From Obelidium mucronatum (lineage: Eukaryota; Chytridiomycota; Chytridiomycetes; Chytridiales; Chytriomycetaceae), in the NCBI GenBank assembly GCA_025765595.1, contig JAIVFH010000104.1, positions 52,600 to 116,599 of the forward strand: a DNA stretch of 64,000 nt. Reading direction: 5' to 3'. A program made the translations under genes and the position numbers. Positions 3,514-55,200 of the stretch are shown piece by piece. A model generated the notes under the pieces. It worked only from the letters and a program-made list of their open reading frames with translations. It ran no database searches and was not told the DNA's origin. The number at the start of each line of letters is the position of its first letter. The first letter of the stretch is position 1.

Positions 3514-3587
3514 TTGTGTTTTTTGTTCCTTTTTTTCTGCTTCGGCGCTCCTCTTCAATTTGTTTATTGATGAAAAAATGAAACTCA

Positions 3588-13270: not shown

Positions 13271-13317
13271 CTATTTGTTTGTATGTGTCAAACCAAATAA
13301 ATAACACAGAATTCAAT
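13271..13317 (+). repeat. 47-bp direct repeat, left copy, flanking copia pol fragment
   Basis: This 47-base sequence beginning CTATTTGTTTGTATGTG and ending CAGAATTCAAT is identical to 15062-15108. It abuts the truncated end of the reverse transcriptase frame. It may be the end of a long terminal repeat. Confidence 0.8.
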
Positions 13318-23009: not shown

Positions 23010-26000
23010 TTAACTGCATTGACCATTTCCACCAAAACCAGAACTTCCTTTGACTCTCCAAACTTCCGACATCGTTTGCATCATACAGAGCAATCGTCGC
23101 ATTCATGACTGGATCAGTTTGAATGCACAAATACCGTGACTGTATATCCATAGTCGCATGATTTGTGACACCTACAATCGTCCCATTCACAAACATGACG
23201 ATATTTCCGTCCTTTTGATACGATAAAAGAGTATCAATAGACATGTCAGGGGTATCAGATGTCCAGATGACTTGTTCTTTGAATCGAATCGTTCCTCGAT
23301 ATAGCACTAAATTGCTCGGAATCTTTTCCGTGTTTTTACTTGCTGTGCGGGAGTTTATCATAAGAAGCTGCAATTTACAACACACCATTAAACACGCTCT
23401 CGACTACTCACTTGTCCAGGTCAAATAGAAATCTTGAAGATTCATATATGCCAGAAAGCCCAGCGTTTCTCCTGGCAATAGACAGGTTCTGTTTTGTCCA
23501 TTGATTGGTGGTCGGGTGTGGCCAAGTTGGACATTAGTTCCAATCCGCGATAAGTTTGTTGCATTCGAAAATATGTTGGACGCAAGGTCACTTGGTTTCT
23601 CAATCGTTCCATCAGATGTCCAAAGGATCCTCTCGGTTTCTCCAAAAAGGGCAAGCGTACCATTTCGACGCAAGCATAATTGTGAGGATTTGATTGACGT
23701 ATTGAATGGAACAATTGAGATATTGGTTTCACGCTGATAACAGTTCGACAAGGCGCAGAGATCGATCCATCCCATACTTGAAATACATTGCCCCAGATGA
23801 TAGCCGTTCGGTACCAGTATTCCAGATATCCTTTTTACTTCTAACCGCAGTTCCCTGATAAATTTTCAAATTCCCATTTACTGCAAAGAGTTGGTATTGA
23901 ATCAGCGAATGATAGCATAATTCGCAAATGTTAACTATACCTGTTAAACTAAGGAATATGTCTTTGACGGTTCATGTACTGACACGGTCGCATAGTATCC
24001 CCAGGAAGCATGCAAGAAACGGATTCATTACCAACTGCGATTGCATGCCCCACAAGGCCACATGCATCACCCCCAAATCCACTGAACCCATTCGTTGACG
24101 GATTTTTCCAGACTCGTTTCCATTTGTTATCCGACGCAATATCCAACAAAGCAAGATAGCCCTTTTCACTGACGCAAAAGTGCGTGCTTCTCTTAACTTG
24201 TGATGCACTTGAATTTGTGATGGAATCAGCGCTCATGAGTTCCTGAAGCGAATCGTAAAAAACCAGGCGACCCGAGGGCTCAAAGCTGAATCGAGGCGAT
24301 TTTCGAATCCCATGGCTGATTTGCGCACTCCAAAGAATTGACGACTTGTTTCCCACTTGATGACTCAAGAACAGGTTTCCTTCGGCTGAGGAAAAAGAAG
24401 AATATGTTTAGAACACTGTTTCTTTGAAACCTGATTACAAAAAAACACGGAAAGAAAAGAAACAACCAAACCTGTCATATTCATACTATAGTCTCCCGAT
24501 CGAAGCGATTGACATGGGATGAAGCTTTCCCCGCGCTGCATACACGAGAACTTTTCGCCTTCAAGCGATGTTTTGTAGTGACCCACAACAGATGCCATTC
24601 CAGGAGACGGACACGAAGCAGCTCCAAATCCACTGAAAGTTCCGTTCTTCAGTGGAAGTGACCAGACAGTCGTGTGATTGTTCAGGAGAACCAGGTCACC
24701 AGTCTCAACCAAACAGAATCTAGAGTTTGGTAAACCGCGAGTCAAGTCGCCCGATGTAGCTCCAGGAATGGATTGGATTGTGGAATATCCCAACGGTGCC
24801 ATCTTCGCGGTATTGGAAGCTTGCATTTCCAGAAAGGGGGGATGTAATCGTCCACATCAACGAGGTGAGGTCGCTGCTGGGAGACCCTCGCCGTAATTCA
24901 ATGCTTGAAAATTCTGAGACAATGATTAGAACGTTTCATTTGCAACATCACCAAACCTGTCATATTCAAGAAGTATTCTCCAATCCGCAAGTATTGACAG
25001 GGGTTCATCGCAGCCCTCGCGACTCAGGCATCGAGCGTAGAGCATGCGTAGGGTTCATTATGTTGCTCCATATCGATTCCTGTGTCACCGTTGTGCAAAT
25101 ACACTGTCTCATACGTTATAAGAGGAATAACGTCTAATGGGGCCTTTCTGACAATATCCGCCAGGTAACCCACAGCACCGCATGATTCATTGGATGGGTT
25201 TCGGTTAAATCCAATTGAAATTCCTTGCGATGACCAGATAAACTCAAAGTTGGTGCGATTGTAGACGCCAAAGTAACCATCAGAATGCAAACATAAGAAG
25301 CAATTGACTGATCCGTTCCGTACATCAGATGCATGCAACACAGTTTCATCATTTTGAGACCATACATCGACGACTTCAATATTTCCGTTTGGGTGGTATT
25401 GTAAGACTGCATGATTATACATCGTCACAGAAACCTGCTCCTCGGATGAATACCATAAAATATTGTTCCCAGTCTGATTCTGCAGTACAAAGATGCCGTT
25501 GTTTTTTGGCCTCCATAATTGATAGCCAGCCAGTTGAATTCCCAACCAACCAATACTTGATCCTGGCGGTACACATATCATTCCATCAATCTCTATTGCG
25601 AAACTGTGCAATCCATCATTGAAATAAAACATTGTTGTAGAGAGCACGGAAAGGTCTAAGGTGTGTTGATACGAGTAATCTGGTTGAGGCAGTTTGACTA
25701 GTCCGGCTGATATGTAATCAAAACTGATGCAGTAGGTTAGGACCGCCGGGTTTGTTGAAAATGTGCTGATTGTTTCGTTTCTCAGGTGCACCGTTAGGGA
25801 GGCCGAATCATCCGTAGATGTCATAGTCAATTTGTAATCTTGATTACGATCCATTGTTCCACCACCCGCTGTGAATAAAAGACGGTCTGGGGCCCCGATT
25901 GGCCCGCTGTACAGTCCAATATTTGCATCCTCTGTTTGAAAAGCTTCATTTAATAATTGTAGGGGTGGGAAGGCAGGCAAACATTACCTGTCAACTTCAA

Positions 26001-29000
26001 ATACTTTGAACCAAATCTTATATATTGGCAGTAGCTGACGGAAACATTTGGTGAAAGACACATGCCCACTGTATAAGTATCTTCAATCCATGGACTCCCC
26101 ACCGGCCCACAATCCGAGGTATCCCCAAATACCGGATAGCTCCATTTCCGCTCCGAGTCAATAAAAATAGAAAACTCCCCTGATGAGTGGATACAAACAG
26201 CATTGGCACCTTGAACGTCTTCTGTCAGATAAAAAAGCACGGGCAGCCAAGGATTTCGAATTTCCACATATCCATCCAAGCTGAAAAGCAAGTAGCTAAA
26301 TTTGCCCAAGGAAAGAGATCGCCACACTTCCCGACTCGATGGCAGGGATGGATTGCCGATTGACCGTACCAAAGCGCCATCCTCTAAGAAATTCATGTCA
26401 ATTTCATTAACCCCAGATACTGAATGGCTTACCATCCATCCATATATATGACTCGCCAGATCGCATGTACTGGCACGGTTTCAACATCGCACCAGGCTTT
26501 AAACAGGTCAACTGCTCGTTGACAAACCATCCAATGGATCCACAACCGTTATACCACCCAGATGCACCCGAGGACTGCCAAATAACATCAAAGCGATCAA
26601 AAAGCGTTAGTTTCCCTTCTGGCGTCAAACACAAGTCTGTAGCAGGCTTGTTCAAAGTCAACAGCCCCGTTTCTGAGATGACTCGCTGGTGACCGTCATA
26701 TAGAACCAAGTTTCCATCGGTTTGGAAGGCAAACTTGTAGTCCAGAGACGGTGGGTGTCCTTGATGTCCAGTACTCCAAATCAATGATCCAGCAGTCTCG
26801 CTGTTACTAGAGAATATTTTTAAATTGGAGTCATGGTCCAGAAAAGCATAGTAGTCGCCAGTCTTCAACATTTGACAGGTCTTGAGAGTAGTTCCAGGAA
26901 GAATACAGCCACTAGCTGTACCGTTGTGGAATCGAGGCTTTCCAACATCTTGAAGAGACTCGCACTCAAGCGTAAATCCAGAGTTTCTCCGGTTTCGATT
27001 CACGCTTCTGGGATTACTCCATACAATGTCAAGAAAACTCTTGCGATACACTGTTAAAGATCCTTCGCTGTCAAGACAAAGACGACTGGCGTTCGCGAAG
27101 AGTATCGATGAAGAAGAACCTCTCATTGGTTGTAATCTAAACCCAACCCCAATGTTTCCGTTCACGTCGAAATCCAAAAAATAAGCACGCGATTCACTCT
27201 GGGGTAATCCAGCGTTCCATACACGCTTTGATTTGTCCCATTCAAACCCCTCATAAATAGCAAGATCGCCCGTTTCTGAAAGAATCAGTCAATTCAAGAT
27301 GAATGCCACCAAAAAGAAATGCTTTATACCACCTTCAACCACGAAAAAAAAGTCGCCTCTACGCATATACTGGCAGACTTCCATTCTTTCCGAAGGTCGC
27401 AAGCAAATAGCCGGTTGATCCATCTCAGGAATAACCATTTCCACAGTTCCAACAGGTCGGCACAGATTCCCTCCAAACCCATAGAACCCCGGTTGAGTTG
27501 GAAATACCCATAAAGCTTGACTGGAGCTATTATGTACCGAAAGCTTCGGCCAATAAGGCGCCTGATAGATTCCCAGATCTGCACCTGAAGGTGTGCCCAA
27601 CAGCGATACTCGAAGACACAAGGCATCCCCGCCAGAGAAAGGAAACCGAAAACTATTCCTGGCAATTCCATCTGCGTCAGTAACAAGAAGCTCGCCATCA
27701 TCCTTGAATGACAATGTATAATCGCCGAAACGTTGACGAGCAAAGCCAGCATGCCATACAACTTTTTGATTTTCGTCTCTAAGAACAACATTTCCGGCCA
27801 ATTCACCCGAACCTGTGTTGTGTAATTGTCAGGTACAGCTTCCACAATCCAAAACTCATCAAAAATACCTTCGACACTCAGACTCCTATACCAAACTACA
27901 ACCCCCCTTAAATCATTAAGACTCTTGTATAGTCCTGAAAATCGCCTTGTATACATCTTCTTATAACTAACCACCAGGGCGGTGCTTGTAGTTACAGTCA
28001 TTCCTCGAAACAAACATCTAGTCTCCCAGGATCCACTTCCCATCATCCATGTGTTCCCATACAAAGACTCAACCTCAAAAGGAGATTCTATAGTCTTGCG
28101 AGGACGGAACCCAAAATATTCTATTTCAATTGAAGGCCAAACTTCAAGACGACGTTGTGGAAATGAGCTAAAAATCGGTTCTCTTGCTGAATCACCAATG
28201 GTCAAAAACATGTATGAGCGATTCTTTAACGGGTATTTTGTCAGTGAGCTCCCATCTTCCCTCTTGATGCTGAGAGAGTCCCCCGAAAAGAGAAGCGAGT
28301 ACTTTTCAACATCAGCCCCATTAAAACCAGTTGTGAATATTCGCGAAAAATTCTGTATGTACATGACGAGATTGCCATCACCTTTTTTTGTTGTCGTTTG
28401 AAAGATCAGAAATTAGAACGGTTGGAAAATATGGAAGTTGGAAAACTCACGTTGCATCAACAGAGAAAGTCCCTGGTAGTAAATGTACTGGCACGAGAGA
28501 ATACTTTCTCCAGGAAGTAAATGTACGTTTGATTTATCGATTGGGCTATGGGCAGGAAGGTATTCAATACTTTCGCACAAGTCCAATCCAGCGATAACAC
28601 TCGGCATAGAATAGAGTCCACCAGTGGTCGATTGAATACAAGAAAACAGGCTAGATGAGTTCAGAATTGGATCTGACCAAGTAAACGATGTTCCTCCGTT
28701 CGGGCTTGATATAGAAATTGAAGAAGTCGTGTCAAATGAGAAGGAGTAATCCTTCGGCTGGTTTCCTGAGGCGCCCATAGTCCAAAGAACATTATCTCCT
28801 TCACGAAGCACTAAATTACCAGCCAAATCTCCCGAAGCTGTTCGAAGGCGGCAGTTTTGTTCACTTTGTTGCAGAGGATGATACAAATAAATAGAAAGTC
28901 CTCACTTTGCATCATAAGAGTATGATTTCCGAGGATCAAATACTGACACGGTCCAATCCGCTGCTTTGGGAAGCAAAAGTCGCCATTCTGTCGCCGCATC

Positions 29001-29582
29001 ATCAAACCAATATCCTCACAGATGTGAAATCCAAAATTAAAAGTAGGCGGATTCATGTACCACACGTCCCCAGCCAAGCCAAAAGTAGAGTCCGAATATA
29101 CACAGAGATCTCGGCCAAAGACGGGATAGGTGAGTGCAGTGATTACGACCCCATTTGGGTCAATAATCGAGAGTGATTCGTTGCCGTGGCGTAAGACATA
29201 TCCATCAGAGTAGTAGTCCACTGGTATATTCGTAGTCCATAATGGACGTGGTCTACTGGTTGCGGGATCTGAGAAGTACAAGGCCAGGTTGGCATCGCCT
29301 ATTGCTTGACGTCAAACTCAAAACACCCAAAAAAGACCAACCAGCCTCACGTTGCATAACCAAGTAAGAGTAGTCAGCGAGTAGATATTGACATGGTCGC
29401 AGCTCTGAATTCGCTGGAATGCATTGACCAACATTCTGTAGTGTGGGGCAGTCAGCAACCCCATGGATGCTGGGTATCGGTTGAAGCACTGAACTTGGTC
29501 TCCACGGCTCTGGAACTCTTGGTGCAGTATGCCCGTAGGCCTTCACAGAAGCCACAAGGCTGATAATATTCAAAAGCAACAT
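23010..29582 (-). pseudogene. Inverted, frame-damaged copy of the giant lectin-repeat gene
   Basis: This is a minus-strand copy of the gene at 49385-55944, with the same 12-exon plan: 29582-29351, 29298-28906, 28837-28451, 28381-27869, 27812-27333, 27275-26433, 26383-25988, 25931-24957, 24913-24472 and three more to about 23010. The first seven exons are open and keep the phase-1 splice sites. From exon 8 on the frame is broken: +2 and +1 insertions around 25024-25065 bracket a TGA at 25024, and single extra bases lie near 24784, 23969, 23737 and 23070. A product would be cut after roughly 1,350 residues. The signal peptide (MLLLNIISLVASVKA) and B-lectin-like motifs of the front part remain (FAFQTDGNLVLYD, CLKPGAMLKPCQYMR). 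Either a pseudogene or a shortened paralogue. Confidence 0.75.
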
Positions 29583-29639
29583 TTCACAATTTCCTGCAAG
29601 CCAGCCACACGCTGATTTATTAATATCTTGGTTCAAGAA

Positions 29640-29769
29640 AGTCACTCCTGACCCTCAAGCAACTTCAAACTCGCACCACCACCCGTCGAAACGTGAGAAA
29701 ACCTGTCCTCACGCCCAGTCTTGGCAACAGCCGTAGCAGCGTCACCACCACCAATAATCGTCGTAGCTG
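29640..29769 (-). pseudogene. 3' fragment of phosphoglycerate kinase, edge of the duplicated block
   Basis: On the minus strand the frame reads [18 protein letters not shown] and then [20 protein letters not shown], which is the C-terminal part of PGK encoded at 49130-49260. It ends in a premature stop after LLEGQE. It sits directly upstream of the lectin copy exactly as PGK sits upstream of the intact lectin gene. The match stops at about 29769, giving the second edge of the inverted segment. Beyond it, an open frame continues to 30100 with sequence I do not recognise. Confidence 0.85.
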
Positions 29770-29779
29770 ACGTCGATTT

Positions 29780-30440
29780 TACAACCAAGTAAGACAAATC
29801 TGCAGTTATCATGACGCTAGGGAAATTCAAAAGAACTTTTTGAGTAATCCAAGGGTTTATATAGGATCCTGGATCTGTGGGTTTCATGGAGTATTTCCAC
29901 ATCAGTGTGTCGTTTTTGAAGTTTTTTGATGACGGCGTCAAAGTATTGGGGCGCTTTCCTCCAAGCTCCGATAGTCGCATCCACCGTGGACATTGATTTT
30001 TAACAGGCTTCCGTGTAATGGAACGGGATAATTGAGTCTCCAAAGACTGGATGTGTTCTTGGGAAGACACCTCTGTCGTATCCCTCATTACCTCCCTCAT
30101 TACTAACCCTATCTAAGCCCCTATTTATTCCCACTTATTCTCTATCTCACATTATATTATCTGCCTTATCTATCTGTCTGTTATACTTATTTGATTTATT
30201 TGTGTGCAAGAATAATAAATTCCCAAAGTTCCAAAGGACGTCATCGTTCACTCCCCTCACTCCTCCTCCATACAACAACAGACACCCCAACCTCCAAACA
30301 TCAAAACTGCATATCCAGGCGAGGCAAGAGAGAGTCTTGAATAGGTCATTTTCTTTATCGGTATGAAGGATGAGAGATGTTTCGATACCAGTGTAGGCCT
30401 GGTCTTTGAGGGGCGGGAGATATGTTTGAAGGTAGTCTGG
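29780..30440. other. Degenerate sequence between PGK fragment and helicase relic
   Basis: A minus-strand frame from 30100 reads with phrases such as [15 protein letters not shown] and [20 protein letters not shown], and another from 30485 reads VTPDYLQTYLPPLKDQ. They may be the tail of the helicase relic or part of another element; I do not recognise them. Confidence 0.3.
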
Positions 30441-31804: not shown

Positions 31805-33847
31805 ATGAGCGGATTTCTTGTTTCCGACGAACGACCAACATCAACCCCTTCAACAGCAACTGTTGAAATTGCGTCTGTCTCGGGGTCCTCAACTGTGGGC
31901 CTTACGCTGAGCTGGAAGGACCTCGGCTACTCTGTCAAGGACAAGAGCATCTTGGCCGGTCTGAGTGGATCAGTGGCGCCTGGCCAAGTCCTTGCAGTGA
32001 TGGGTCCCAGTGGTGCCGGAAAGAGTACTTTCTTGGTGAGTATCACTGGCAGTCTTGGCGTTGCTTCATTGGATCAATATTAATATCTGCTTTTAAAGGA
32101 TGTGATCGCAGGACGTAAGGGAAACGCCGGAACAATGCACGGCAAAGTCATGCTCAACGGAACCGAACGTCCAATGAAAAAGTACTCTTCGTATGTTACC
32201 CAGGACGACTCTCTGATCGGCTGCTTCACTGTCCGCGAAACCGTTCGCTGGGCTGTGGAGCTCAATTTGCCAACGTACGTCAAGAAGGAAAGAGAAGAGA
32301 AAGTGAACGAACTTTTGGCTCAATTTGGATTGATGAAGTGCGCTGATCACGTTGTGGGTGATGCTATTTTGAGAGGCATCTCTGGTGGAGAAAAACGTCG
32401 TCTTTCCATCGCCATTCAGTTGGTTAAGGAACCAAAGGTGATTTTCTTGGATGAACCTACTTCGGGTTTGGACAGTGCGGCATCGTTCAAGGTTATGGAG
32501 GCCATCAAAGATCTTGGTGAGTGATCGATCATACACCGTTTTTATCTGCCAAAAGCATTTGCTTACAGTCAACCTTCAGCCAAGCGCAGAAACTGTACGG
32601 TTGTTTGTTCAATTCATCAGCCAAGTCCATCCACGTACTCTCTCTTTGACAAGGTCCTCTTTTTGGCCCGTGGAAACACAGTCTACTTTGGCGAAAACAA
32701 AGACATCGAAGCTGAGTACTTAAAATCAGTTGGATATGAAATCCCGTTGCACATGAACGTTCCTGACGCTGTCTTGGACCACATCAACGTCGACTTCTTG
32801 GGAGATGAGAAACTCGCCGATACTCGAATCAACCACTTTGTTGAATCTTGGGACAAGTCCGAGAACCGAACCAAAGTTATTTCCCAAGTTGATTTGGAGG
32901 TCACCAAAGGAAGCACTCCTTCCACAACCGATGCAGGAATGGTTATTGGTGGTGGCGACTACACCCACAACTTTTTCAAGCAAGTTGAAATCTTGACCCG
33001 TAGAAACTTTGCCAACGCAATCAAGAACATTTTGCTCTTCTGGGTTCGCCTTGCAATGTACCTCGCCATGGCTATTCTTATGGGAACTACTTGGTGGCGT
33101 ATGAGCTTGAACCAGAATACTGTTCAAGACAGATTCTCCGCCATCTTCTTTGCGATTGCTTTCCTGGCATTCATGTCTGTCGCGGGTATCCCAGCCATTC
33201 TCGAAGAACGAGCCGTCTTTTATAGAGAACGCATGAACAGAACGTACCGTGTGGGTGCCTATGTCGTTGCCAACACGCTCGTTTCTCTGCCATTTGTCTT
33301 TTTGATTGCGATTGGTTTCTCCCTCCCGGCGTACTGGATGATGGGAATGAACCCTGGAGCATCCAACTTCTTTACTTTCGTTGCTTACTTGTGGTTGGCG
33401 CTTTACGTTGCCGAATCCATGGTTATTCTCCTTGCTGCGATTTTCCCAATCTTTGTGGCCGCATTGACACTTGCCAGTTTCTTCAACGGTCTCGAAATGG
33501 TCACTCAAGGTTACTTTGTGCGTCGTCAGAATATCCCAGCGTTTTGGAGATATGGATTCCATTACTGGAACTACCAAAAGTGGTCCTGGGAGGCTTTGAT
33601 TGCAAACGAGTTTGTGGGGCTTACTTTCGATTGTAATCCGAACCCATCTGGAAAAGCTGGCTGTTTCTGTTCGATTCCTTCCAGTTTGGGGCCAGATGCT
33701 TGTACTTTTTCGGGAGAGGATATTATCGCAGAGTATGGATACACGGATTATTCGTACTGGAAGAGTGCGGTTTGTTTGGTTGCGTTGATTGTGTTTTTTA
33801 GATTGGCCTTCTATGTGACTTTGCGTGTCAAGAAACCAAAGGTGTAA
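31805..33847 (+). CDS. ABCG-type half transporter
   Basis: Exons 31805-32035, 32099-32516 and 32580-33847 give 638 residues, the usual size for a half transporter with one nucleotide-binding domain before one membrane domain. Seen in order: Walker A GPSGAGKST at about 66-74, the Q-loop TQDD, signature SGGEKRRLSI, Walker B VIFLDEPTSGLD and H-loop CSIHQPS. The C-terminal half has about six hydrophobic helices (FWVRLAMYLAMAILMGTTWW to AVCLVALIVFFRLAFYVTL), with a Cys-containing extracellular loop before the last helix (KAGCFCSIPSSLGPDAC). It would act as a homo- or heterodimer at the plasma or an organelle membrane, exporting lipids or small hydrophobic compounds. The substrate is not predictable. 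Confidence 0.92.
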
Positions 33848-34283
33848 ACACTGAAAAATAAACAACAGCATTTGAAATAAAAAAGAAAGGATGCGTTCCG
33901 TGATTGTCATTGATTGCAATATAAAATGGTCGAACTAATCCAGAAATAATCTGGTTTTCGTTCGACAGGAATAACGAAGTTCATTGAGGACACTAGATAA
34001 TATTTTCTGAACACTCATAGAGAGAATGCAAGTGAATTTGAACCTCACGATAATGTCACCGCAATAGGCCAATTCGCAAATGAGAGTACTTGAAGCTCTG
34101 TTTTAGTTTAACCTGGCCTCGAGAGACAGTCGAACTGCCAAGACAGTGAAGATGCACACTCCACGCAACTCCAATGAGAGACGCCGGCAAAGAGGAGCCA
34201 AAGAGGAGCCGACAAATCACATTTTTTCACATTTTTTCTTTTCTCTTTTTTGCCCCCTCGCCGCTCCCGAAATTCTTCCAAAC

Positions 34284-35894
34284 ATGTTTTCAGACACAGC
34301 AACCCGAACAGCGGCCGAGCCGCGCCGCTCGAATGCGTTCCGCCTGAGTTCGTTTCTTCCGCTTTACGCCGGCGACGACGAGACAAAGTCTGTGTTTTCG
34401 CGGCTCAGTTTGTTCTTTGCAAAGCCGGAGTTCGATGTCGACTTTGACAGCGACAGCGGCTCGGAGAGCGGCGGTGATGATGATGAGGATGGGCAGGGCG
34501 GGTTTCGGGTGTCGCGCTTCGTGGGCGGCTACGACTCCGAGAAGCAGAAGGGGTACAAGGCGTGCGTGGACGTGCTCGAGGTGGGTTTGCTGACTACTGA
34601 TGACTGTCTCTGGTTACAAACTGATCACTCGCTGCTACAGGGGTACTCGCGGAAAACAAGCAAGCACATTTCCGCAATGCTCGAAGACGATTGTCTGAAC
34701 GAGAAGGCTGGTGCCAGCGACGATGGGTTCATGCTGGCCAATGCCGATTCAAGATCCGAAAAAGTCATTATGCGACAGGCAGAGCGAGAGCTTTCTCGCA
34801 AGGATCAAGTCGTCGGATGGGCAAAGAGCAACAAGCGACGACTGCTGTATCTGTTGTGCATTGGCATTCTCTGCGTTGTCGTTGGTGTTGTCATTTGGGC
34901 AGTCCAGAAAGGAAGATACTCGTCTGTTTCAAATGGCATTTCTGGATCAAATGCATCATCTTTCGGTGCTGGCAACGAAGGAAGCGACCATGGCGATTCT
35001 GCAGGCGATAATTCCAATTCCAATAGCAACGAATCAGTTGGCAGTGTCCCCGTCCCGGCTTTAGCGTCCAGTTCTCAAGCATCTATTTCGACTTCTTTTT
35101 CATCTTCTATCACGTCTTCGCCTTCTACCTCGGCGTCTGCTACATCCCGTTCAGTTACTAGCAGAAACATCACGTCCACTACAAACTCAACCAGCTCAAC
35201 CACAACTTTAGCCACGACAACATCCTCGACCACCACCACCACAACCACAAGCACAACCACAACATCTACAACAACAACATCTACCACGACAACAACCACC
35301 GAACCACCCCCGTCTCCAACCCCACCACCACCCCCAGCACCAAAGTCCGGAACAATCGCCGCACTCATCTCTCAATCCGCTTTCGATTCCGCAGTATCCA
35401 CATGCACAGGCCACTGGGGAATGTATTCCGCAATCACATCAGGTTACTCCCACGCCCTCCCCGGCGGCCTCCCCGAACTCGCCCTCCTCCTCGGAAACAT
35501 GGCATGGGAATCCGGCGGTTTCAGCCACACCAAAGAACAAGCCTGTCAAGACGGCTCCTGCGCGTACGGGTGGTACTACGGACGTGGATACATTCAATTG
35601 ACGTGGCAAGCCAATTACCAAGCCGCTGCTGACTTTTTGGGAAGACCTGAGATTGCGAGTAATCCTGACTTGGTTTCCAATGATGAATACACGAATTGGC
35701 AGGTCGTTGAATGGTATTGGTCGCAAAAGGTTGGACCGGTGCTTCAATCGAATGGGTACAGTATTGGCGCGAGTGTGAAGGCGATCAATGGGGGTATTGA
35801 ATGTGGTGGGAATGTGTGGGGTGGTCGTATTAGCTATATTCAGTGTTTTGCGAATCAGTTTGGGACTTGGGTGGATCCAAACTCTTGGTGTTGA
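34284..35894 (+). CDS. Type II membrane-anchored GH19 chitinase, paralogue 2
   Basis: Exons 34284-34580 and 34641-35894 encode 516 residues. Start ATG 34284 is chosen because the following MFSDTATRTAAEPRRSNAF aligns with the N-terminus of the chitinase at 3513; the upstream in-frame ATG at 34146 adds an unrelated stretch. A transmembrane helix (LLYLLCIGILCVVVGVVIWAV) follows an acidic cytoplasmic region; then a Ser/Thr stalk, a Pro-rich hinge and a GH19 domain with LAWESGGF-like text (NMAWESGGFSHTKEQAC) and YYGRGYIQLTW. Both putative catalytic Glu residues are kept. The intron 34581-34640 (GTGGGT..CTACAG) is 60 bp with no stop codon, so reading through it would insert 20 residues. The first paralogue has no intron at this position. 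Confidence 0.82.
   Translation: MFSDTATRTAAEPRRSNAFRLSSFLPLYAGDDETKSVFSRLSLFFAKPEFDVDFDSDSGSESGGDDDEDGQGGFRVSRFVGGYDSEKQKGYKACVDVLEVGLLTTDDCLWLQTDHSLLQGYSRKTSKHISAMLEDDCLNEKAGASDDGFMLANADSRSEKVIMRQAERELSRKDQVVGWAKSNKRRLLYLLCIGILCVVVGVVIWAVQKGRYSSVSNGISGSNASSFGAGNEGSDHGDSAGDNSNSNSNESVGSVPVPALASSSQASISTSFSSSITSSPSTSASATSRSVTSRNITSTTNSTSSTTTLATTTSSTTTTTTTSTTTTSTTTTSTTTTTTEPPPSPTPPPPPAPKSGTIAALISQSAFDSAVSTCTGHWGMYSAITSGYSHALPGGLPELALLLGNMAWESGGFSHTKEQACQDGSCAYGWYYGRGYIQLTWQANYQAAADFLGRPEIASNPDLVSNDEYTNWQVVEWYWSQKVGPVLQSNGYSIGASVKAINGGIECGGNVWGGRISYIQCFANQFGTWVDPNSWC
34581..34640 (+). other. 60-bp in-frame, stop-free intron in chitinase paralogue 2
   Basis: GT at 34581 and AG at 34640 bracket 20 codons without a stop. 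The encoded 20 residues have no counterpart in the paralogue at 1834-3513, where DVL is followed directly by RSYASS. Retention would keep the frame open. Confidence 0.65.
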
Positions 35895-36245
35895 TTTATC
35901 TTTTACACAATGTCATATGGAAATATTTAAAAAAAAAACCCCCCTCTTTTATTTTTAATCGTATCCGTTCTTCCTTGGTTTTTTTTTAATAAGGATCTTT
36001 GGAATAAATTCGTTCTTCTTTCGATGTTTCTTTGAGCAGATAAGTTCGGAATCATTCACTTGCAATGTGAATGCGTTTAATCACATTTATATTATCAAAG
36101 TGGCTACTTTTGGGTAAAAAAATGGAATTGCATTGACGGGTCTTTGGTTTTGGCTCGACTTTTTCTTACTTGTTCTTCTTTCTTGGCGCCGAAATAGAGC
36201 AACAACTGAAAAAAACAAAATATTTAAATCGACAAAGACACACAG
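35895..36245. other. Spacer between the two GH19 genes
   Basis: 350 bp rich in A and T runs (AAAAAAAAACCCCCC near 35932-35944 and several poly-T tracts). No gene is supported. Confidence 0.5.
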
Positions 36246-37345
36246 ATGGCTTCAATGTACAACCATCGAACTGCTGCCGCAGCGGAAGAAAACGCGGCGT
36301 TTCTAACCAGTGCAAACAAACCGTTCCAGGTATCCAAAGAAGAAGTCGTTGCCGAACAAATCCGAAGTGAACGAGCAAGCAAGAGGCGAAAAGTGTGTAT
36401 TTGTCTTGTATTGTTTGCAGTAATGGTTGCATTGTTTCTTGGCCTTGGCTTGGGTTTGGGGTTGGGGCTGAAGCGATCATCCAATGAGAGTGGTAGTGGC
36501 GGTAAGGATGATCCAAACAACAAGATGACTGCCAATACTGCCTCCGGATCGTTGTCTACTACTATTTCGCGGACAGCTACAACCACTGCCACTGTGACTA
36601 ACTCTGTGACAAGTCTGTCGTCAACTGGATCGGGAACAACAAACAGACCCACAAGCACCACATCCCAATCCGCAACGGCGACAGTAACATCTTCAAACTC
36701 AATCAGCAGTTTGATTAGCGAGCAAACATTTACAAAAGCCGTCGAGCAGTGCGGAATAACTGCCGTTGCCCCATCAACAATCTACCAAACACTCAACAAT
36801 GGATTTTCAAAAACACCAATCCCCGGGGGGTTATCCGAGCTTGCTCTTTTAATGGGCCAAATTGCATTTGTGTCGCTTGGATTCACGTTCACTCACTCTC
36901 AACCGTGTGTTGGATCCACGTATCCCACGCCTCAATGTCCAGATGGGTTCTATTATTCGAGAGGGTACATTCAGTTGACGGGGGAAAAGAATTATAGAGC
37001 CGCGGCGAATGCATTGGGACGAGAGGATTTGTTTGTTGATCCGGATTTGGTGGCTCGTGATCCAAGTGTGAATTGGGCTGTTGTTCAATGGTAAATGGCC
37101 CGTAATTATGCGGATTTCTTTTTATTTACTGGATGTGGTTTTTTTTTTTGTTCGTAAGGTATTGGACGAGTACTGTTCAGCCATTGTTGGCCAGCAATGG
37201 ATACACTTTGGCTGCGAGTACGCAAGCAATGAATGGACCCAAGGAATGTGGACCTGGAAAAACTATTGCAAGTGATCGAATTAAGTACGTGCAGTGTTTC
37301 CAGCAGCAGTTTGTTGGCGCATCTGATTCTGTGACCACCTGTTGA
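36246..37345 (+). CDS. GH19-like membrane protein lacking catalytic glutamates (predicted pseudoenzyme)
   Basis: Exons 36246-37090 and 37159-37345 (intron GTAAAT..CGTAAG) encode 343 residues. The protein has a short cytoplasmic tail, a transmembrane helix at about 50-76 (ending in a run of Gly-Leu), a Thr/Ser stalk and a GH19-type domain. The fold signature is present (GFYYSRGYIQLTGEKNY, LGREDLFVDPDLVARD, VNWAVVQWYWTSTVQP). Where the active paralogues read AHESGGF or AWESGGF this one reads AFVSLGF, so the general acid Glu is replaced by Val. The second acidic position (KEWAC / KEQAC) is replaced by HSQPC. The frame is otherwise intact, so this looks like a protein kept without chitinase activity, perhaps binding chitin, rather than a decayed gene. 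Confidence 0.75.
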
Positions 37346-37542
37346 GCACAATGAGGTAATCAACCCCCTTTCTGTTGCTGTTTTTTTGTAAGACTTAAAA
37401 AAAATGTTCGTTTTAATAAGAGCACAATCCGCTGGTACTTTGTTGGTGGAAACATTGTTGGGGAGGTGAAACTTGGAAATTTTCCGAAGCCATATATCGA
37501 TTTCCCTTTTTTTTTCTTTCCTACAACACCAACAAATTCACA

Positions 37543-38393
37543 ATGGCTGACCACGAAGAAGAGGAGCACGAGACCTTCGAGGCCGTTGGTGCCGGAGCCT
37601 CCCTTACCTACCCAATGCAATGTTCTGCTCTTCGTAAGAACGGACACGTTGTCATCAAGGGCAGACCTTGCAAGATCATTGATGTATGTACATTGATTTT
37701 GCTTTTTTCTTCCATTATGTTCTCCGTTACTAAAGCAGCTTTTAACCCACACACCCTTACTTCTTCTGCCTGCTTGTTATTGTCTCTTGGTTCTCCCTGT
37801 TCTGTCTATGCGTATCGACTGATTATAATCAAATTGAATGATTCGATCTGGCCCTATCCACCTTCTTGAACTGATTACACAGAGTGAGTATTGATGTCAG
37901 TTGCTGCCTCGAATTCAATCGAATGCAATCCTCTGCTGTTAAGACTGATTATAACTAACGTACTCTTTTTCGTTTAGTGGTACGAATTCGAAACTTGCTG
38001 AAACCAGTCAAACCACCGCATTATAATACTAAAAAAAACCTTCCTTGTTACTAGTCCACCTCCAAGACCGGAAAGCACGGACACGCCAAGGTCAACCTCA
38101 CCGCCATCGACATCTTCACCGGAAAGAAGCTCGAAGATGTTTCCCCATCCACCCACAACATGGAAGTCCCCAACGTCACCCGTACTGAATACAACGTTCT
38201 TGACGTTGATGACGGTTTCCTCTCCTTGATGAAGGAAGACGGTACCACCAAGGACGATGTCAAGGTCCCAGATGGAGAGTTGGGCGACCAGATTGAGAAG
38301 GAATTCGCTGCCGGCAAGGACTTGTCTGTTACTGTTATCACTGCTATGGGTGAAGAGGCTGTTATTGCCGTCAAGGATGCTCCAAAGGCCTAA
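37543..38393 (+). CDS. EIF5A: Translation factor eIF5A (hypusine-containing)
   Basis: The proposed model joins 37543-37683, 37883, 37978-37979 and 38055-38393: 483 nt, 160 residues. eIF5A promotes elongation and termination on the ribosome after a Lys is converted to hypusine. [38 protein letters not shown] and CKIID precede the splice region; [20 protein letters not shown] with the hypusine-site Lys follows it. Between D and S the family has one residue, usually Met. Splicing out a single 371-bp intron loses that residue. Using the strong internal splice sites ACACAG/A/GTGAGT and GTTTAG/TG/GTACGA adds exactly A plus TG, restoring ATG. Each of the three introns has its own likely branch site (CTGAT, CTAAC, TACTAA). 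The termini are secure; the micro-exon model is inference. Confidence 0.93.
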
Positions 38394-38662
38394 AAAAAAA
38401 AGATGAAAATATATTTAGTCATTTGTTTTTTTCTTTCTTTTTTAATGCCTTCTTCCCCCTCCGTCATTATACATTGTCCTTTGTCGTTATTTTTGTCTTC
38501 TTTTTTTTGATCTTTGGTGCTTTGGTTGTTGATGATTTCGGGATCTGAGAGTAAAAGAAAAATAAGAAGTGATAATTCTTAATGCGAGCTTGTGCTATTG
38601 CTGCCCTTCAGGAGGCTATTTCGCTCGAGCACGCAGATGCTGAATAAAACAACAATATTATT
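38394..38662. other. eIF5A 3' flank and promoter of the next gene
   Basis: 270 bp, T-rich just after the eIF5A stop. Nothing else is supported. Confidence 0.4.
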
Positions 38663-39820
38663 ATGGATTTAAAAAAGGTCAAAAAAATGAAACGGCGAGC
38701 CTCTCTTGTCGATTCAACGCCCAAAATCTTGTGGGAGCATGCTGCGTTGAATGTGACAGACAACGATCGACGGTTGGAAGCCGTCTTTGCAACCTACCAC
38801 GATGGGAATCTCTGGTTTCCGAAATCCAGTGAAGAAAGAAGCCCTGAGAGTAGAGAGTGTGCTCGAGCGGCAGTGTTGAAAACCTTGGAGCATGAAGCAA
38901 AAACGGTGCCTCTGAAAGTCGGAGAGCTAGCAGAGATTCAAGATAGTGTCGCACGCCTCTTTCTCGAGACCATGAAGCAGCTGGAATGTGAGAAGGACGG
39001 GATTTGCTTGTGGCGTGATGCCCCTCTTCCCAAATGTTCCACCCTACAAGAAGCAAAGATCCAGCGTCTAGCACCTCGCGTATACACTTGGTATTCTGGG
39101 ATTTCTGATTTCGCATTTGGTTATTCAGGCGACGCTAGCATCCACAGATGCAATGAAACTGACTTGGGGGTATGTGTGGATGATTTACCAACGTCGTTCT
39201 TCTTGCCAATGGTTTGTCCTGCCGAGGTTAAATGCTTAGTAGATATTCTTGAAAATATGATGGATGATGACATCACTGGCCAGTACAATCCCACTTGCCA
39301 TTCAGACGATATCCTACAGACAGCATCATATGCACTCTATTGCATGCTCCGTATTTTACCACATCTGACTGATGTCCAGAAAGTTGAAGTGTTTGGCCCA
39401 AATATTTCAATGTATGCGCTTCTATTGACGCACACTTGCTGCCAAATTATCCGAGTATCCATCACAGGATTTGGTCCTGCAGGTCGAGTTATTCTTCATT
39501 GGGGTGACGTGTTACGTGGGCAGCAAATGGCGAATGCTCTGGTTGATTTCGTTTCTTGGGTCCGTGATCTTCTGGCAAAAGTAACCATATTTGAAGCTGC
39601 CATGAAAGAACCAGGTTCACCAAAGTATATCTGGTTGCCTGTCTCTGAATACAAGTCAGTATTTGCAACCATGGAGACAGACGTGACCCAAGTGATTCTT
39701 GCTTCATTTATGAATCCTGTGATTCGTGTTGGTGACCGTGTTTACCGACTGTTTGAACATATCCTGTCAAATAATTGGAGATCCAAGATTAGTAGTCTTA
39801 GAGTTCTGTTTTTACAAAAG

Positions 39821-39967
39821 CAACGAGTTGCGGCGGAAAGCCAACGAGACGCGGCGAAAAACCAACGAGTTGCGGCAAAAAACCAATGAGTTGCGGCGGA
39901 AAACCAACGAGACGCGGCAAAAAACCAACGAGTTGCGGCGGAAAACCAACGAGACGCGGCAGAAAAG
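39821..39967 (+). repeat. 21-bp tandem repeat encoding heptads, 7 units
   Basis: Seven near-identical 21-bp units (CAACGAG followed by TTGCGGCGG or ACGCGGCAA types) encode QR(V/D)AA(E/K)(N/S). Two unit types alternate, V and D versions. The fourth unit carries the CGA to TGA change. Confidence 0.9.
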
Positions 39968-40063
39968 GAACGAGACACCCTCGCAAATTACTTGACTCAA
40001 CTTCTGCAAGGCACAATGACAGCTGCCGATTTGCCACCAGACTTTGTGGCCAGTTTTGGATTG

Positions 40064-40183
40064 AAACCCAAAGATTCCGTGGCGAAATACGTGGCAGACA
40101 CTGTACTGGTTCCACTTGAATCGAAAACCAAAGATTCTGTGGCGAAATACACGGCCGAGAGCGTACTGGTTCCAGAGGACAGT
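40064..40183 (+). repeat. Two 60-bp direct repeats in the kinase-like gene
   Basis: 40064-40123 and 40124-40183 are imperfect 60-bp copies, each encoding a 20-residue K-(P/T)-KDSVAKY-x-A-(D/E)-(T/S)-VLVP unit. Confidence 0.85.
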
Positions 40184-40783
40184 TTTCATAACCCTTTCAA
40201 TGATTGGGTATTCGCAAAGTACTTCATTTCAATGCCATACTATGGGCGCTCGTTGGATTTAATCTTTGAAGAAGATGCTGAATGTGCCACTCCTGCTCGC
40301 CTCAAAAGCCTATTTCTCTCTGTTATCGACAAGTCTTTGCTTCCTCTTGAATCTGTGTCGTATTCACACATGGATATTCGCTTGGCCAATGTTGTTTTAA
40401 GTGACTCTGTTGGTTGGTCTGATGCCTGTTTGATAGACTATGATTTTTGCGAAGACTTGGGAATGTCAAATCCCATGAACAGAGTAGAAACTCGATATCC
40501 ACCGGAAGCAAACGTTCACAAAAATAGTGACATTTGGATGCTGGGTATTGTTTTGTTGAATTTGGGTGTTTGTGGTCGTGGGTGGGAGAAGCTGCGTGAT
40601 CATGCAGAAGTGGAGTCGTGGGTGAATGCTCAACTGAACTCGTTTCAGAATGGTGAAGTAGCGAGTAGAGAGGGTGTTTTTGAAGGTGCCTTACAGCTTG
40701 CGGCTGAGTGCCTCTGTGTGAATCCCAATGAGAGAATGGGTGTTGCCGCTGTGAGGGCAAATGTTGATTTGTGGCAGGTTTGA

Positions 40784-41144
40784 TCGCATGTCAGATAATT
40801 TGAGTTTATTGAGTGTGCCTTTCCAATGTATTCAACCAATGTATTCAACCAAAGTCATCTCACTAGTTTGCTTTTCATAACGTGCCTTCTTTCTTGTAAA
40901 GCAATTTCATCTTCAATTCTTGCAGCAACATCTGCTGGAACCACTCGAATGAAGGAATAGATTGGGGGATATGGGATAGAGCACGCGTGTGTTTGTTGTT
41001 ATGGGTGGACCACCAACGTGTCCGAGGAGGAGGAGGAGGAGGAGGAGTGTGATAGCAAAGATAATTTGAGTTTATTTCTTATTGAATAAACCAACTCCGA
41101 GTTTTGTTGGGTATGACTATATTTTTAACGAATCTGAAAAGCGA
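40784..41144. other. Spacer with a GGA microsatellite
   Basis: 360 bp. It includes a GGA trinucleotide run at about 41024-41047 and a direct repeat of AATGTATTCAACC near 40826-40851. No gene is supported. Confidence 0.5.
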
Positions 41145-49289: not shown

Positions 49290-52200
49290 ACAAACAAAAA
49301 TAAAATGCATGTGAAGCAATCTTCCAAATATGATTTCTAAAAAAGCAGTGGCGTTTCATTTGAGGAAATTGGATTACCTGTAAAATGCCCCCGATTTTCG
49401 CACTTCTCAGCCTCGTGGCTTTGGTCAATAGCTTCGGGCCTATTCCACCAAGTGCCCCAGATTTATGGATACCAAGCTCCGCTTTCCAACCAATACCCGG
49501 CGTCCATGGTGTTGATGACTGCGTCACACTCCAGAATGTTGGTCAGTGCATTCCAGCGAATTCCGAGCTGCGGCCATGTCAATATCTATTCGTCAACAAC
49601 GTTTACTTGGTGATGCAACGTGAGTCTGGTTGGTCTTTTTTAAATGTTTTGAGGTTGACATCAAAGCAGGTGATGCCAACCTGGCCTTGTACTCCTCAAA
49701 TCCCGCAACCACTAGACCGGTTCCAAAATGGACTACAAACATTCCAACTGATTACTACTCTGATGGTTATACTTTGCGACATACCAACGAATCACTCAGC
49801 ATCGTTGACCCGAATGGAGATATCATAACCACACTCACCTATCCCGTTGTCGTTGGTGGAAACAATGATTTCTGCGTATTTCCAGGCCCTTATTTTGGGC
49901 TCGGTAGTTTCGCATGGACTGTGAATCCACCGGTTAGGTTTAATTTTGGATTTCACATATGTGAGGATATTGGTTTGTTGATGCGGCCGAATGGGGACTT
50001 TTGTTTCCCCAAGCAGCGGATTGGACCGTGCCAGTATTTGATCCTCGGAAATCATACTCTGATGATGCAAAGTGAGGGCATTTGTATAATTGGTCTTCTG
50101 ATTGGCTCAACAAACCACCTTCTTGCAAACAGCTTCAGGGGACTTGGCTGGGAACTTAGTGCTACGCGAAGGAAATAGCGTTCTTTGGACCATGGGCTCC
50201 TCGGGAAATCGACCGTGGGATTACTCCTTCTCGTTTGACACGGCTTCTTCGATTTCTATTTCAAGTCCGAGCAGAGGAACATCGTTTACTTGGTCAGATC
50301 GAAGCCTGAGCTCCTCTAGCCTGTTTGCTTGTATTGAATCGACCACTGGTAGACTCTATTCGACGCCGAGTGTTATCGCTGGATTGGACTTGTGTGAAAG
50401 TATTGAATACCTTCCTGCCCATAGCCCGATCGATAAATCAAATGTGCATTTGCTTCCCGGAGATAGCATTTTGTCGTGTCAGTACATTTACTATCAGGGC
50501 ATATTGCTGTTGATGCAACGTGAGTCCAGCTGACGGTTCTGGTTCGTCTTCTAACTGCAAATAAAAACAAAGGTGACGGGAATCTTGTTATGTATATGCA
50601 AAATTATACTCAAGCATTTTCAACGGGTTTCCAAGGGGCTGATGCCGAAAAGTACTCGTTTCACTTTTCAGGGGACTCTCTCAGCATCAAGAGGGCAGAC
50701 GGAAGCTCACTGACAAAATACCCGTTAAGCAATCCGCCCTATTTACAATTGATAATTGATGATAAACTTCCGCGTTTTGGTGTTGGTCCTGACTTTCCAG
50801 CTGAAAATTGGCCTGTAACCACATTAGAATATTTTGGGTTCCGTCACCGCAGTACTATGGATTATTTTTGGACTGACTATTCGTACAGAAACACTTGGAT
50901 GATGGGGAGTGGATCCTGGGAGACTGCATGTTTGTTTCGAGGAATGAGTGTCACAACAAGTACCGCCTTGGTAGTTAGTTATAAGAAGATGTATTCAAGG
51001 CGATTTTCAGGGCCGTACAAGAGTCTTAATGATTTACGGGGGGTTGTGGTTTGGTATAGGAGTCTGAGCGTTGAAGGTATTTTTGACGGTCCTTTTGTGA
51101 GTTTTGGATTGTGGAAGCTGTACTTGACGACTTAATAACACAGGCTCGGGTGAATTGGCCGGAAATATTGTTCTTAGAGACCAAAATCAAAAAGTTATAT
51201 GGCACACCGGCTTTTCTCGTCAGCGTTTCGGGGATTATACATTGTCATTCAAGGATGATGGCGAGCTTCTTGTCACCGACGCAGATGGAATTGTCAGGAA
51301 TAGTTTTCGATTTCCATTCTCTGGCGGGGATGCCTTATGTCTTCGAGTATCGCTGTTGGGCACCCCGTCAGGAGCAGATCTTGGAATCTATCAGGCGCCT
51401 TATTGGCCGAAGCTTTCAGTACATAATAGCTCCAGTCAAGCTTTATGGGTATTTCCAAGTCAACCGGGGCTCTATGGGTTTGGAGGGAATCTGTGCCGAC
51501 CTGTTGGAACTGTGGAAATGGTTATTCCTGGGATGGATCAACCGGCTATTTGCTTGCGACCTTCGGAAAGAATGGAAGTCTGCCAGTATATGCGTAGAGG
51601 CGACTTTTATTTCGTGGTTGAAGGTGGTATAAAGCATTTCTTTTGGGTGGCATTCATCTTGAATTGACTGATTCTTTCAGAAACTGGCGATCTTGCTATT
51701 TATGAGGGGTTTGAATGGGACAAATCAAAGCGTGTATGGAACGCTGGATTACCCCAGAGTGAATCGCGTGCTTATTTTTTGGATTTCGGATTGAACGGAA
51801 ACATTGGGGTTGGCTTTAGATTACAACCTATGGGAGGTTCTTCTTCATCGATACTTTTCGCGAACGCCAGTCGTCTTTGTCTTGACAGCGAAGGATCTTT
51901 AACAGTGTATCGCAAGAGTTTTCTTGACATTGTATGGAGTAATCCCAGAAGCGTGAATCGAAACCGGAGAAACTCTGGATTTACGCTTGAGTGCGAGTCT
52001 CTTCAAGATGTTGGAAAGCCTCGATTCCACAACGGTACAGCTAGTGGCTGTATTCTTCCTGGAACTACTCTCAAGACCTGTCAAATGTTGAAGACTGGCG
52101 ACTACTATGCTTTTCTGGACCATGACTCCAATTTAAAAATATTCTCTAGTAACAGCGAGACTGCTGGATCATTGATTTGGAGTACTGGACATCAAGGACA

Positions 52201-55200
52201 CCCACCGTCTCTGGACTACAAGTTTGCCTTCCAAACCGATGGAAACTTGGTTCTATTTGACGGTCACCAGCGAGTCATCTCGGATACGGGGCTGTTGACT
52301 TTGAACAAGCCTGCTACAGACTTGTGTTTGACGCCAGAAGGGAAATTAACGCTTTTTGATCGATTTGACGTAATTTGGCAGTCCTCGGGTGTATCTGGGT
52401 GGTCTAACGGTTGTGGCTCAATTGGATGGTTTGTCAACGAGCAGTTGACCTGTTTAAAGCCTGGTGCAATGTTGAAACCGTGCCAGTACATGCGATCTGG
52501 CGAGTCATATATATGGATGGATGGTAAGGCATTTAGTATCTGAGGTTAAAGAAAATGACATGAATTTCTTAGAGGATGGCGCTTTGGTACGGTCAATCGG
52601 CAATCCATCCCTGCCATCGAGTCGGGAAGTGTGGCGATCTCTCTCTTTTGGCAAATTTAGCTACTTGCTTTTCAGCTTGGACGGATATGTGCAAATTCGA
52701 AATCCTTGGCTGGGCATGATTTTTTTTCTGACGGAAGACGCACAAGGCGCAAACGCTGTTTGTATCCATTCGTCAGGAGAATTTTCAATTTTTATTGACT
52801 CGGAACTGAAATGGAGCTATCCGGTGTTTGGGGATACCTCCGACTGTGGGTCAGTAGGGAGTCCATGGATTGAAGATACTTATACGGTGGGCATGTGTCT
52901 TCCACCAAATGTTGCCGTCAGCTTTTGCCAGTATATAAGATTTGGTTCAAAATATTTGAAGCTGACCGGTAATTTTCGCGACCCTTCGCCTCCTTACAAT
53001 TATTAAATGATCCATTTCAAACAGAGGATGCAAATATTGGACTGTACAGCGGGCCAATCGGGGCCCCAGACCGTCTTTTATTCACTGCTGGTGGCGGAAC
53101 AATGGATCGTAATCAAGATTACAAATTGACTATGACATCTACGGATGCTTCGGCCTCCCTAACGGTGCACCTGAGAAACGAAACAATCAGCACATTTTCA
53201 ACAAACCCGACGGTCCTAACTTATTGCATCAGTTTTGATTACATATCAGCCGGACTAGTCAAACTGCCTAAACCAGATTTCTTGCATCAGTTTGACTCAG
53301 ACCTTTCCGTGCTCTCTACAACAATGTTTTATTCCAATGATGGATTGCACAGTTTCGCAATAGAGATTGATGGAATGATATGTGTACCGCCAGGATCAAG
53401 TATTGGTTCGTTGGGAATTGAACTGGCTGGCTATCAATTATCGAGGCCAGAAAAAAACGGCATTTTTGTACTTCAGAATCATACTGGGAACAATATTTTA
53501 TGGTATTCATCCGAAGAGCAGGTTTCTATGATAATAGGCAATCAAGCCGTCTTACAATACCACCCAAACGGAAATATTGAAGTCGCCGATATATGGTCTC
53601 AAAATCATGCAACTGTTTTGCATTCATCTGATGTACGGAACGGATCGGTCAATTGCTTCCTGTGTTTGCATTCTCATGGGTACTTTGGCATCTACAATCG
53701 CACCAACTTTGAGTTTCTGTGGTCATCGCAAGGAATTTCAATTGGATTCAACCGAAACTCATCTAAAGAATCATGCGGCGCTGTGGGCTACCTGTCAAAT
53801 ATTGTCAGGAAGGACCCATTAGATCCTCTTATTGTTCTATTGTATGAGACCGTGTATTTGCAAAATGGCAACACAGGAATGGATATGGAGCCGTATAATG
53901 AACCCAGCATGCTCTACGCTCGATGCCTGAGTCGCGAGGCTGTGATGAACCCCTGTCAATACTTGCGGATTGGAGAATACTTCTTGAATATGACAGGTTT
54001 GGTGACAGTGCAAATGAAACGTTCTAATCAATGTCTCAGAATTTTCTAGCATTGAATTACGGCGAGGGTCTCCCAGCAGCGACCTCACCTCGTTGATGTG
54101 GACGATTACATCGCCCCTTTCTGGAAATGCAAACTTCCAATACCACGAAGACGGCACTGTTGGGATATTCCACAATCAATCCATTCCTGGAGCTTCTTCG
54201 GGCGACTTTACTCGCGGTTTACCAAACTCTAGATTCTGTTTGGTTGAGACTGGCGACCTGGTTCTCCTAAACAATCACACGACTGTCTGGTCACTTCCAC
54301 TGAAGAACGGAACTTTCAGTGGATTTGGAGCTGCTTCGTGTCCGTCTCCTGGAATGGCATCTGTTGTGGGTCACTACAAAACATCCCTTGAAGGGGAAAA
54401 GTTCTCGTGTATGCAGCGCGGGGAAAGCTTCATCCCATGTCAATCACTTCGATCGGGAGACTATAGTATGAATATGACAGGTTTGGTGGTTTCTTTTCTT
54501 TCCTTGTTTTTTTTGTAATCAGGTTTCGAGGAAACGGTGTTCTAACGCTTTCTTCTTTTTCCACGCAGCCGAAGGAAACCTGTTCTTGAGTCATCAAGTG
54601 GGAAACAAGTCGACAATTCTTTGGAGTGCACAAATCAGCCATGGGATTCGAAAATCGCCTCGATTTAGCTTTGAGCCCTCGGGTCGATTGGTTTTTTACG
54701 ATTCGCTGCAGGAACTCATGAGCGCTGATTCCATCACAAATTCAAGTGCATCACAAGTTAAGAGAAGCACAGACTTTTGTGTCAGTGAAAGGGGCTATCT
54801 TGCTTTGTTGGATATTGTGTCGGATAACGAATGGAAACAAGTCTGGAAGAATCCGTCAAAAAATGGGTTCAGTGGATTCGGGGGCGATGCTTGTGGCCTT
54901 GTGGGGCATGCAATCGCAGTTGGTAATGAATCTGTTTCTTGCATGCTTCCTGGGGATACTATGCGACCTTGTCAGTACATGAACGTCAAAGACATATTCC
55001 TAAGTCTTACAGGTATATCAACACTGGAACTTGCGAATTATGCTATCGTTGCTGATTCAAGACCAACCCTTTGCAGTAAATGGGAATTTGAAAATTTATC
55101 AGGGAACTGCGGTTAGAATTAAAAAGGATATCTGGAATACTGGTACCGAACGGCTATCATCTGGGGCAATGTATTTCAAGTATGGGATGGATCGATCTCT

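Follow-up and report, generated by a model that had tools for sequence, protein, structure and literature searches.

In Arabidopsis, the APC11 gene contains a 1-nt exon, an A, that was demonstrated with cDNA, minigenes and reporter constructs (PMC4674806). Plants have conserved 1-nt exons in APC11 and in VPS55, where the donor is GTRAGT, and rice has microexons of 5 and 12 nt that lie side by side (PMC8831610). In February 2026, a read-confirmed 1-nt exon in Fusarium CYP621A was described as the first for any fungal gene; according to the introduction of that paper, exons of 2–5 nt were already known (PMC12940212). The eIF5A gene of Obelidium mucronatum described here probably combines two such exons, of 1 and 2 nt, in one codon. 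The preliminary description of this DNA had named Arabidopsis single-nucleotide exons as a precedent; the precedent is real (APC11, PMC4674806), and closer cases exist in fungi and in plant VPS55.

As in APC11, the candidate 1-nt A exon of eIF5A lies between AG and GT in an apparent single intron and is needed for the reading frame. However, one exon restores the frame in APC11 (PMC4674806), whereas in eIF5A the 1-nt and 2-nt exons would jointly make up an entire codon, and the frame also survives if both are skipped. CYP621A is likewise a fungal nuclear gene with a 1-nt exon in a conserved motif, in an interval that exceeds the usual intron. Its exon (a G) is single and conserved in 20 orthologues (PMC12940212), whereas eIF5A would have two consecutive ones, in a translation factor analysed here in one genome. 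A 1-nt A exon with a GTRAGT donor is the pattern of plant VPS55, where this strong donor is conserved, and the rice pair illustrates that adjacent microexons occur. The rice pair is larger, however, and neither case is described in the excerpted text of that paper as two ultra-small exons in one codon (PMC8831610). No report of one codon made from two ultra-small exons was found in a literature search largely limited to open-access papers.

Two further systems share the consecutive removal of introns. Fungal stwintrons have several U2 introns at one position that are removed one after the other, as the eIF5A introns would be. In stwintrons, however, the internal intron splits a splice element of the external one and nothing in between is retained (PMC7138796), whereas eIF5A would keep 1 + 2 nt. 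A stwintron was rejected for this locus, as the three intron units border on an A and a TG that would be exonic and are required by the protein. Zero-nucleotide recursive splicing at AG|GT is similarly stepwise, with each step readying the next donor (reviewed in PMC13149111). In contrast, coding bases would be left behind in eIF5A, the introns are short, and there is no AGGT within 37684–38054. A zero-nucleotide recursive splice site was rejected on this ground, and neither such a ratchet as such nor a 3-nt ATG exon is present in the interval.

The window, which is the whole 64-kb stretch of DNA analysed, is part of contig C104; the genome comprises 48.3 Mb in 694 contigs. Its matches include 89 for the Zn2Cys6 cluster family and 19 for chitin synthase, which suggest a fungus. 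The eIF5A gene runs on the forward strand from an ATG at 37543 to a TAA at 38391–38393. It was identified by its two domains (IF5A-like N-terminal, with 128.6 bits for a cut-off of 27.1, and eIF-5a, with 101.7 bits for a cut-off of 24.2) and by the presence of the hypusine-loop motif. Matches to solved eIF5A structures start at query residue 4 and those to PF21485 at residue 20, both in the part encoded by exon 1, and the last exon matches PF21485 and PF01287. Between GAT, which ends at 37683, and TCC, which starts at 38055, lie 371 nt. These coordinates, the letters and the sub-intron lengths of 199, 94 and 75 nt had been given correctly in the preliminary description. Translation also bore out its statements that removal of the interval as one intron deletes the residue before the hypusine loop and that GAT-A-TG-TCC reads D-M-S with the frame intact; the single-intron protein has 159 residues and no Met at this position.

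Table 1. Exons of the eIF5A gene and the proposed division of its 371-nt interval (window coordinates)
Feature	Position	Strand	Description
eIF5A exon 1	37543..37683	+	ATG to Asp GAT, 47 codons, ends ...KIID; by translation
Intron 1 (proposed)	37684-37882	+	199 nt, GTATGT...ACACAG; branch site uncertain
Exon A (candidate), Met codon base 1	37883	+	1 nt; sole AG-N1-GT in interval; required for D-M-S
Intron 2 (proposed)	37884-37977	+	94 nt, GTGAGT...TAACTAAC...TTTAG
Exon TG (candidate), Met codon bases 2+3	37978-37979	+	2 nt; sole AG-N2-GT in interval; required for D-M-S
Intron 3 (proposed)	37980-38054	+	75 nt, GTACGA...TACTAA...ACTAG; final acceptor common to single-intron reading
eIF5A last exon	38055..38393	+	Ser TCC of hypusine-loop motif to stop TAA; by translation

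The two internal acceptor/donor pairs, AG-A-GTGAGT and AG-TG-GTACGA, are present as claimed, and each is unique of its size within the interval. Both tiny exons are bounded directly by AG and GT, as is required of ultra-small exons of 1–2 nt. The sole AG-N3-GT in the interval encloses TGA, a stop. GC donors directly after an exon of 1–3 nt would yield only CA and TT, neither of which completes ATG. All chains of up to four GT-AG introns were enumerated, with donors and acceptors in 37641–38120 and an intron minimum of 40 nt. The 10,620 chains included 782 that retain the C-terminal frame. Three yield a protein of 160 residues, but an intact eIF5A is encoded by just one of them, the A/TG chain with D-M-S. 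In addition, nine splicing combinations were translated. The frame was kept solely by complete removal of the three introns and by removal of the interval as one intron, and the other seven lost the C-terminal frame.

Splice-site strength was judged with a self-trained ab initio gene finder run on 184 kb of the genome with a stronger intron cost, which gave 187 introns. Earlier splice models had been rejected for drifting toward non-splice motifs, for finding 5 introns where seven controls with altered motifs gave 1 to 5, or for degenerating to about 2000 introns. The 138 predicted introns of up to 110 nt served as the reference set, from which the eIF5A interval is absent; the set grew from a fungal-like starting consensus and consists of predictions only, including doubtful introns and some from duplicated genes. 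Two related genes in inverted orientation, whose open frames are nearly identical, lie in the window at 25024–29980 (reverse strand) and 51143–54480 (forward strand), and the introns common to this pair enter the training set twice.

Measured against these 138 model introns, intron 1 ranks at the 95th percentile for its donor and the 98th for its acceptor, intron 2 at the 90th and 30th, and intron 3 at the 21st and 6th, both of the latter weak. Thus, exon A is flanked by an acceptor at the 98th and a donor at the 90th percentile, and exon TG by sites at the 30th and 21st. The two best of the 24 GT donors in 37641–38080 are those at 37684 (first) and 37884 (second), and the best of the 15 AG acceptors there ends at 37882, so that the strongest acceptor and the second-best donor stand one base apart. 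When the preceding exon bases are joined, the context of the GTGAGT donor rises from 5.61 to 6.83 bits and that of GTACGA from 5.63 to 6.22 bits. The acceptors at 37735 and 37738 outscore those at 37977 and 38054; using them would break the frame or alter the protein.

Plausible branch sites had been claimed for all three sub-introns. By eye, this holds for intron 2, with TAACTAAC about 19 nt upstream of the acceptor, and for intron 3, with TACTAA about 22 nt upstream. It is uncertain for intron 1, since just 8 nt separate the top-scoring candidate, CTGAT, from the acceptor. Each sub-intron contains the 7-mer ATTATAA once (starts at about 37821, 37947 and 38019; 61, 30 and 35 nt before the acceptors), and none of the 138 other model introns has it; it was chosen after the fact and may therefore be due to chance.

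Alternatively, the interval could be one 371-nt intron, 37684–38054, in an eIF5A that truly lacks Met, for example through a 3-nt deletion at the donor, with the tiny exons present by chance. Such an intron would be canonical, with a strong GTATGT donor, and would keep the frame over 159 residues. The gene finder, which is protein-blind, also favoured one long intron, but with another acceptor; the intron that it drew, 37684–38066, would delete Met together with STSK. Against a single intron ending at 38054 stands the need to bypass the strongest acceptor, at 37882, for one at the 6th percentile. The ATG chain would also have to be a coincidence, and its frequency by chance was estimated in two ways, both relying on the same splice-site model and sharing its limits.

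In the first, the outer sites were fixed and the interior was dinucleotide-shuffled 20,000 times. A chain spelling ATG appeared in 71 of the shuffles; in 4 both sites were as good, and none scored as high. In the second, such a chain was present in 157 of 6770 real 371-nt segments, which overlap one another, cover both strands and include coding sequence, and 2 of the 6770 scored as high, one of them the eIF5A locus itself. In-frame chains for any sense codon are common (1168 of 1708 segments, with three scoring as high, possibly overlapping the locus). The weight therefore rests on the exact expected Met and on the strength of the sites, and not on there being a chain at all.

The cost of losing the residue was computed with two profiles. 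For PF21485, the score is 128.6 bits with Met and 118.4 without; for TIGR00037, it is 176.3 with Met and 166.5 without. The drop of about 10 bits in both speaks against removal of the interval as one intron. DMST is found in all five solved eukaryotic eIF5As among the matches listed (5 of 35). A search for relatives gave archaeal ones only among genome contigs, and none among viral contigs. In the 72 archaeal aIF5As, which were found by pattern, selected in part via the neighbouring KHGHAKVN pattern, and come mostly from Woesearchaeota and other Nanoarchaeota-type genomes, the Met column is occupied in all 72 (T in 39, V in 13, L in 9, I in 7 and M in 4). The column is never empty, so length is conserved there, though the letter is not always Met. 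An eIF5A without the residue would lack a position that is missing in 0 of 72 archaeal homologues.

Intron length was also considered. Protein-supported junctions were taken from chaperonin, actin-family and chitin synthase genes, with 108 of 114 match rows entered and 6 omitted. Of 64 junctions, with allelic copies counted twice, 4 with estimates below 30 nt were treated as alignment artefacts and excluded. Among the remaining 60, 57 introns measure 47–148 nt, with a median of about 66 nt over the protein-supported set, and three exceed 200 nt (about 203, 504 and 521 nt). That short introns are the rule here counts in favour of a division of the interval. The intron of about 203 nt is plain by inspection, and the two of about 500 nt, which are allelic and belong to an actin-family gene (C177 and C131), are filled with a CGCCGAAGGCGG-type repeat alternating with T-rich stretches. 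The length of 199 nt is thus not unusual for intron 1. That introns above 200 nt exist in this genome favours a plain single intron. Given such plain introns of roughly 200 nt or more, 371 nt is no anomaly by itself, and length was discarded as proof of a composite interval. With the residue, the acceptor and the chance estimates weighed against its length, its donor and its open frame, one intron in a protein truly without Met is unlikely.

A second alternative uses exon TG only. Two introns, from a donor at 37688 (GTACAT) to 37977 and from 37980 to 38054, would give D-V-L-S and a transcript containing GATGTATTGTCC. This protein is in frame at 161 residues, one residue longer than with D-M-S, and its profile scores are intermediate (121.5 bits for PF21485 and 169.2 for TIGR00037). 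However, its first donor lies 4 nt into the intron that begins at the strongest donor and is weaker than that site. The combination also passes over the best acceptor and the second-best donor and adds a residue in a conserved stretch. It is therefore extremely improbable.

The assembled sequence itself could also be doubted. The junction reads GATGTATGT, and three bases might have been lost from an original GATATG|GTATGT by an assembly or sequencing error; otherwise, a non-canonical TG-AG intron might retain GTA (Val). A G precedes the donor in about two-thirds of the model introns, where this gene has T, and other differences between the two genomic copies of the gene resemble homopolymer indels. 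Against this, both assembled copies are identical at the junction, loss of 3 nt outside a homopolymer would be an unusual error, and the ATG chain is left unexplained by either version. Error or a non-canonical intron is thus very improbable.

These copies are the C104 locus and one at C44:183668, the only two eIF5A matches in the genome in a search that scored the best candidates only. The contigs are 96.4% identical over 15.6 kb, with 340 substitutions. A 7.5-kb block (window 33501–41000) that holds eIF5A and part of the chitinase cluster is without substitutions relative to C44, which may reflect a recent conversion event, loss of heterozygosity or an artefact of assembly. Inside the gene, single-base indels in or beside homopolymers are the only differences between the copies; three of these fall within sub-introns (one in intron 1 and two in intron 3), and the splice sites and tiny exons show no difference between the two copies. 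Their agreement argues mildly against a random junction error. The second copy was rejected as independent conservation, because there are no substitutions between the copies over 33.5–41 kb. Both copies carry the structure and no further copy was found among the best candidates; nothing obvious therefore marks the gene as a dead duplicate.

Other features of the window include three genes that we take to resemble family 19 chitinases, at 1834–3591 (reverse strand), 34146–35894 and 36246–37345 (both forward strand). Each has what looks like a predicted membrane segment and a Ser/Thr-rich linker. An open frame at 13313–14284 (reverse strand) presumably resembles a fragment of a copia-type retrotransposon polyprotein. 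Two origins for the three eIF5A introns were tried and rejected. When the sub-introns are aligned locally in pairs, they score no better than shuffles do (468, 848 and 279 of 1000 shuffles reach the scores), which gives no sign of duplication. An introner origin was dismissed as the 371-nt interval has no genome-wide match besides itself and the second eIF5A copy.

Sequence, chain uniqueness, site strengths against the genome model and the cost of residue loss were all computed directly. On these points, the interpretation of the interval as carrying two microexons is supported wherever the sequence can speak to it (the unique chain, the strength of the sites and the cost of the residue). It is thus probable that the interval consists of three U2-type GT-AG introns with exons A and TG, a real double microexon spliced stepwise. 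Exons A and TG would be constitutive and together supply the ATG of the Met that precedes the hypusine-loop motif. The mature mRNA would then read GATATGTCC, whereas the single-intron product would read GATTCC.

From the arrangement of the sites we infer that splicing occurs here, that it is stepwise and that it follows one of two orders. The three introns would most likely be removed in steps, because two spliceosomes could hardly occupy an acceptor and a donor simultaneously when just 1 or 2 nt separate these sites. Each step would better the exon context of the next donor, from GAT|GTATGT to GATA|GTGAGT and then GATATG|GTACGA. Intron 1 may be removed first, followed by intron 2 and then intron 3. 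Equally possible would be removal of intron 2 first, after which introns 1 and 3 would flank a 3-nt exon, ATG. Because the frame survives when both exons are skipped, translation of a mis-spliced product could go unnoticed by frameshift surveillance. The beginning of intron 1 (37684–37866) is open in the eIF5A frame for about 61 codons before a stop; unspliced RNA would thus add a foreign tail.

As only two eIF5A matches were found among the best candidates, this gene presumably has to sustain the organism. It is a tentative and rather doubtful suggestion that the Met codon of the only eIF5A found is made solely via an obligatory order of recursive splicing, with splicing fidelity gating the yield, possibly as a regulatory checkpoint; the gating is suggested because seven of the nine combinations lose the C-terminal frame. 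If the double microexon is real, annotation pipelines would silently lose one conserved residue here, since skipping both exons keeps the frame. As a compact minigene, the locus would also allow the order of splicing to be measured. A single codon in an essential translation factor would be spread over a 1-nt and a 2-nt exon among three consecutive introns, an arrangement that would test the lower size limit of consecutive exons and demand stepwise, intron-defined splicing.
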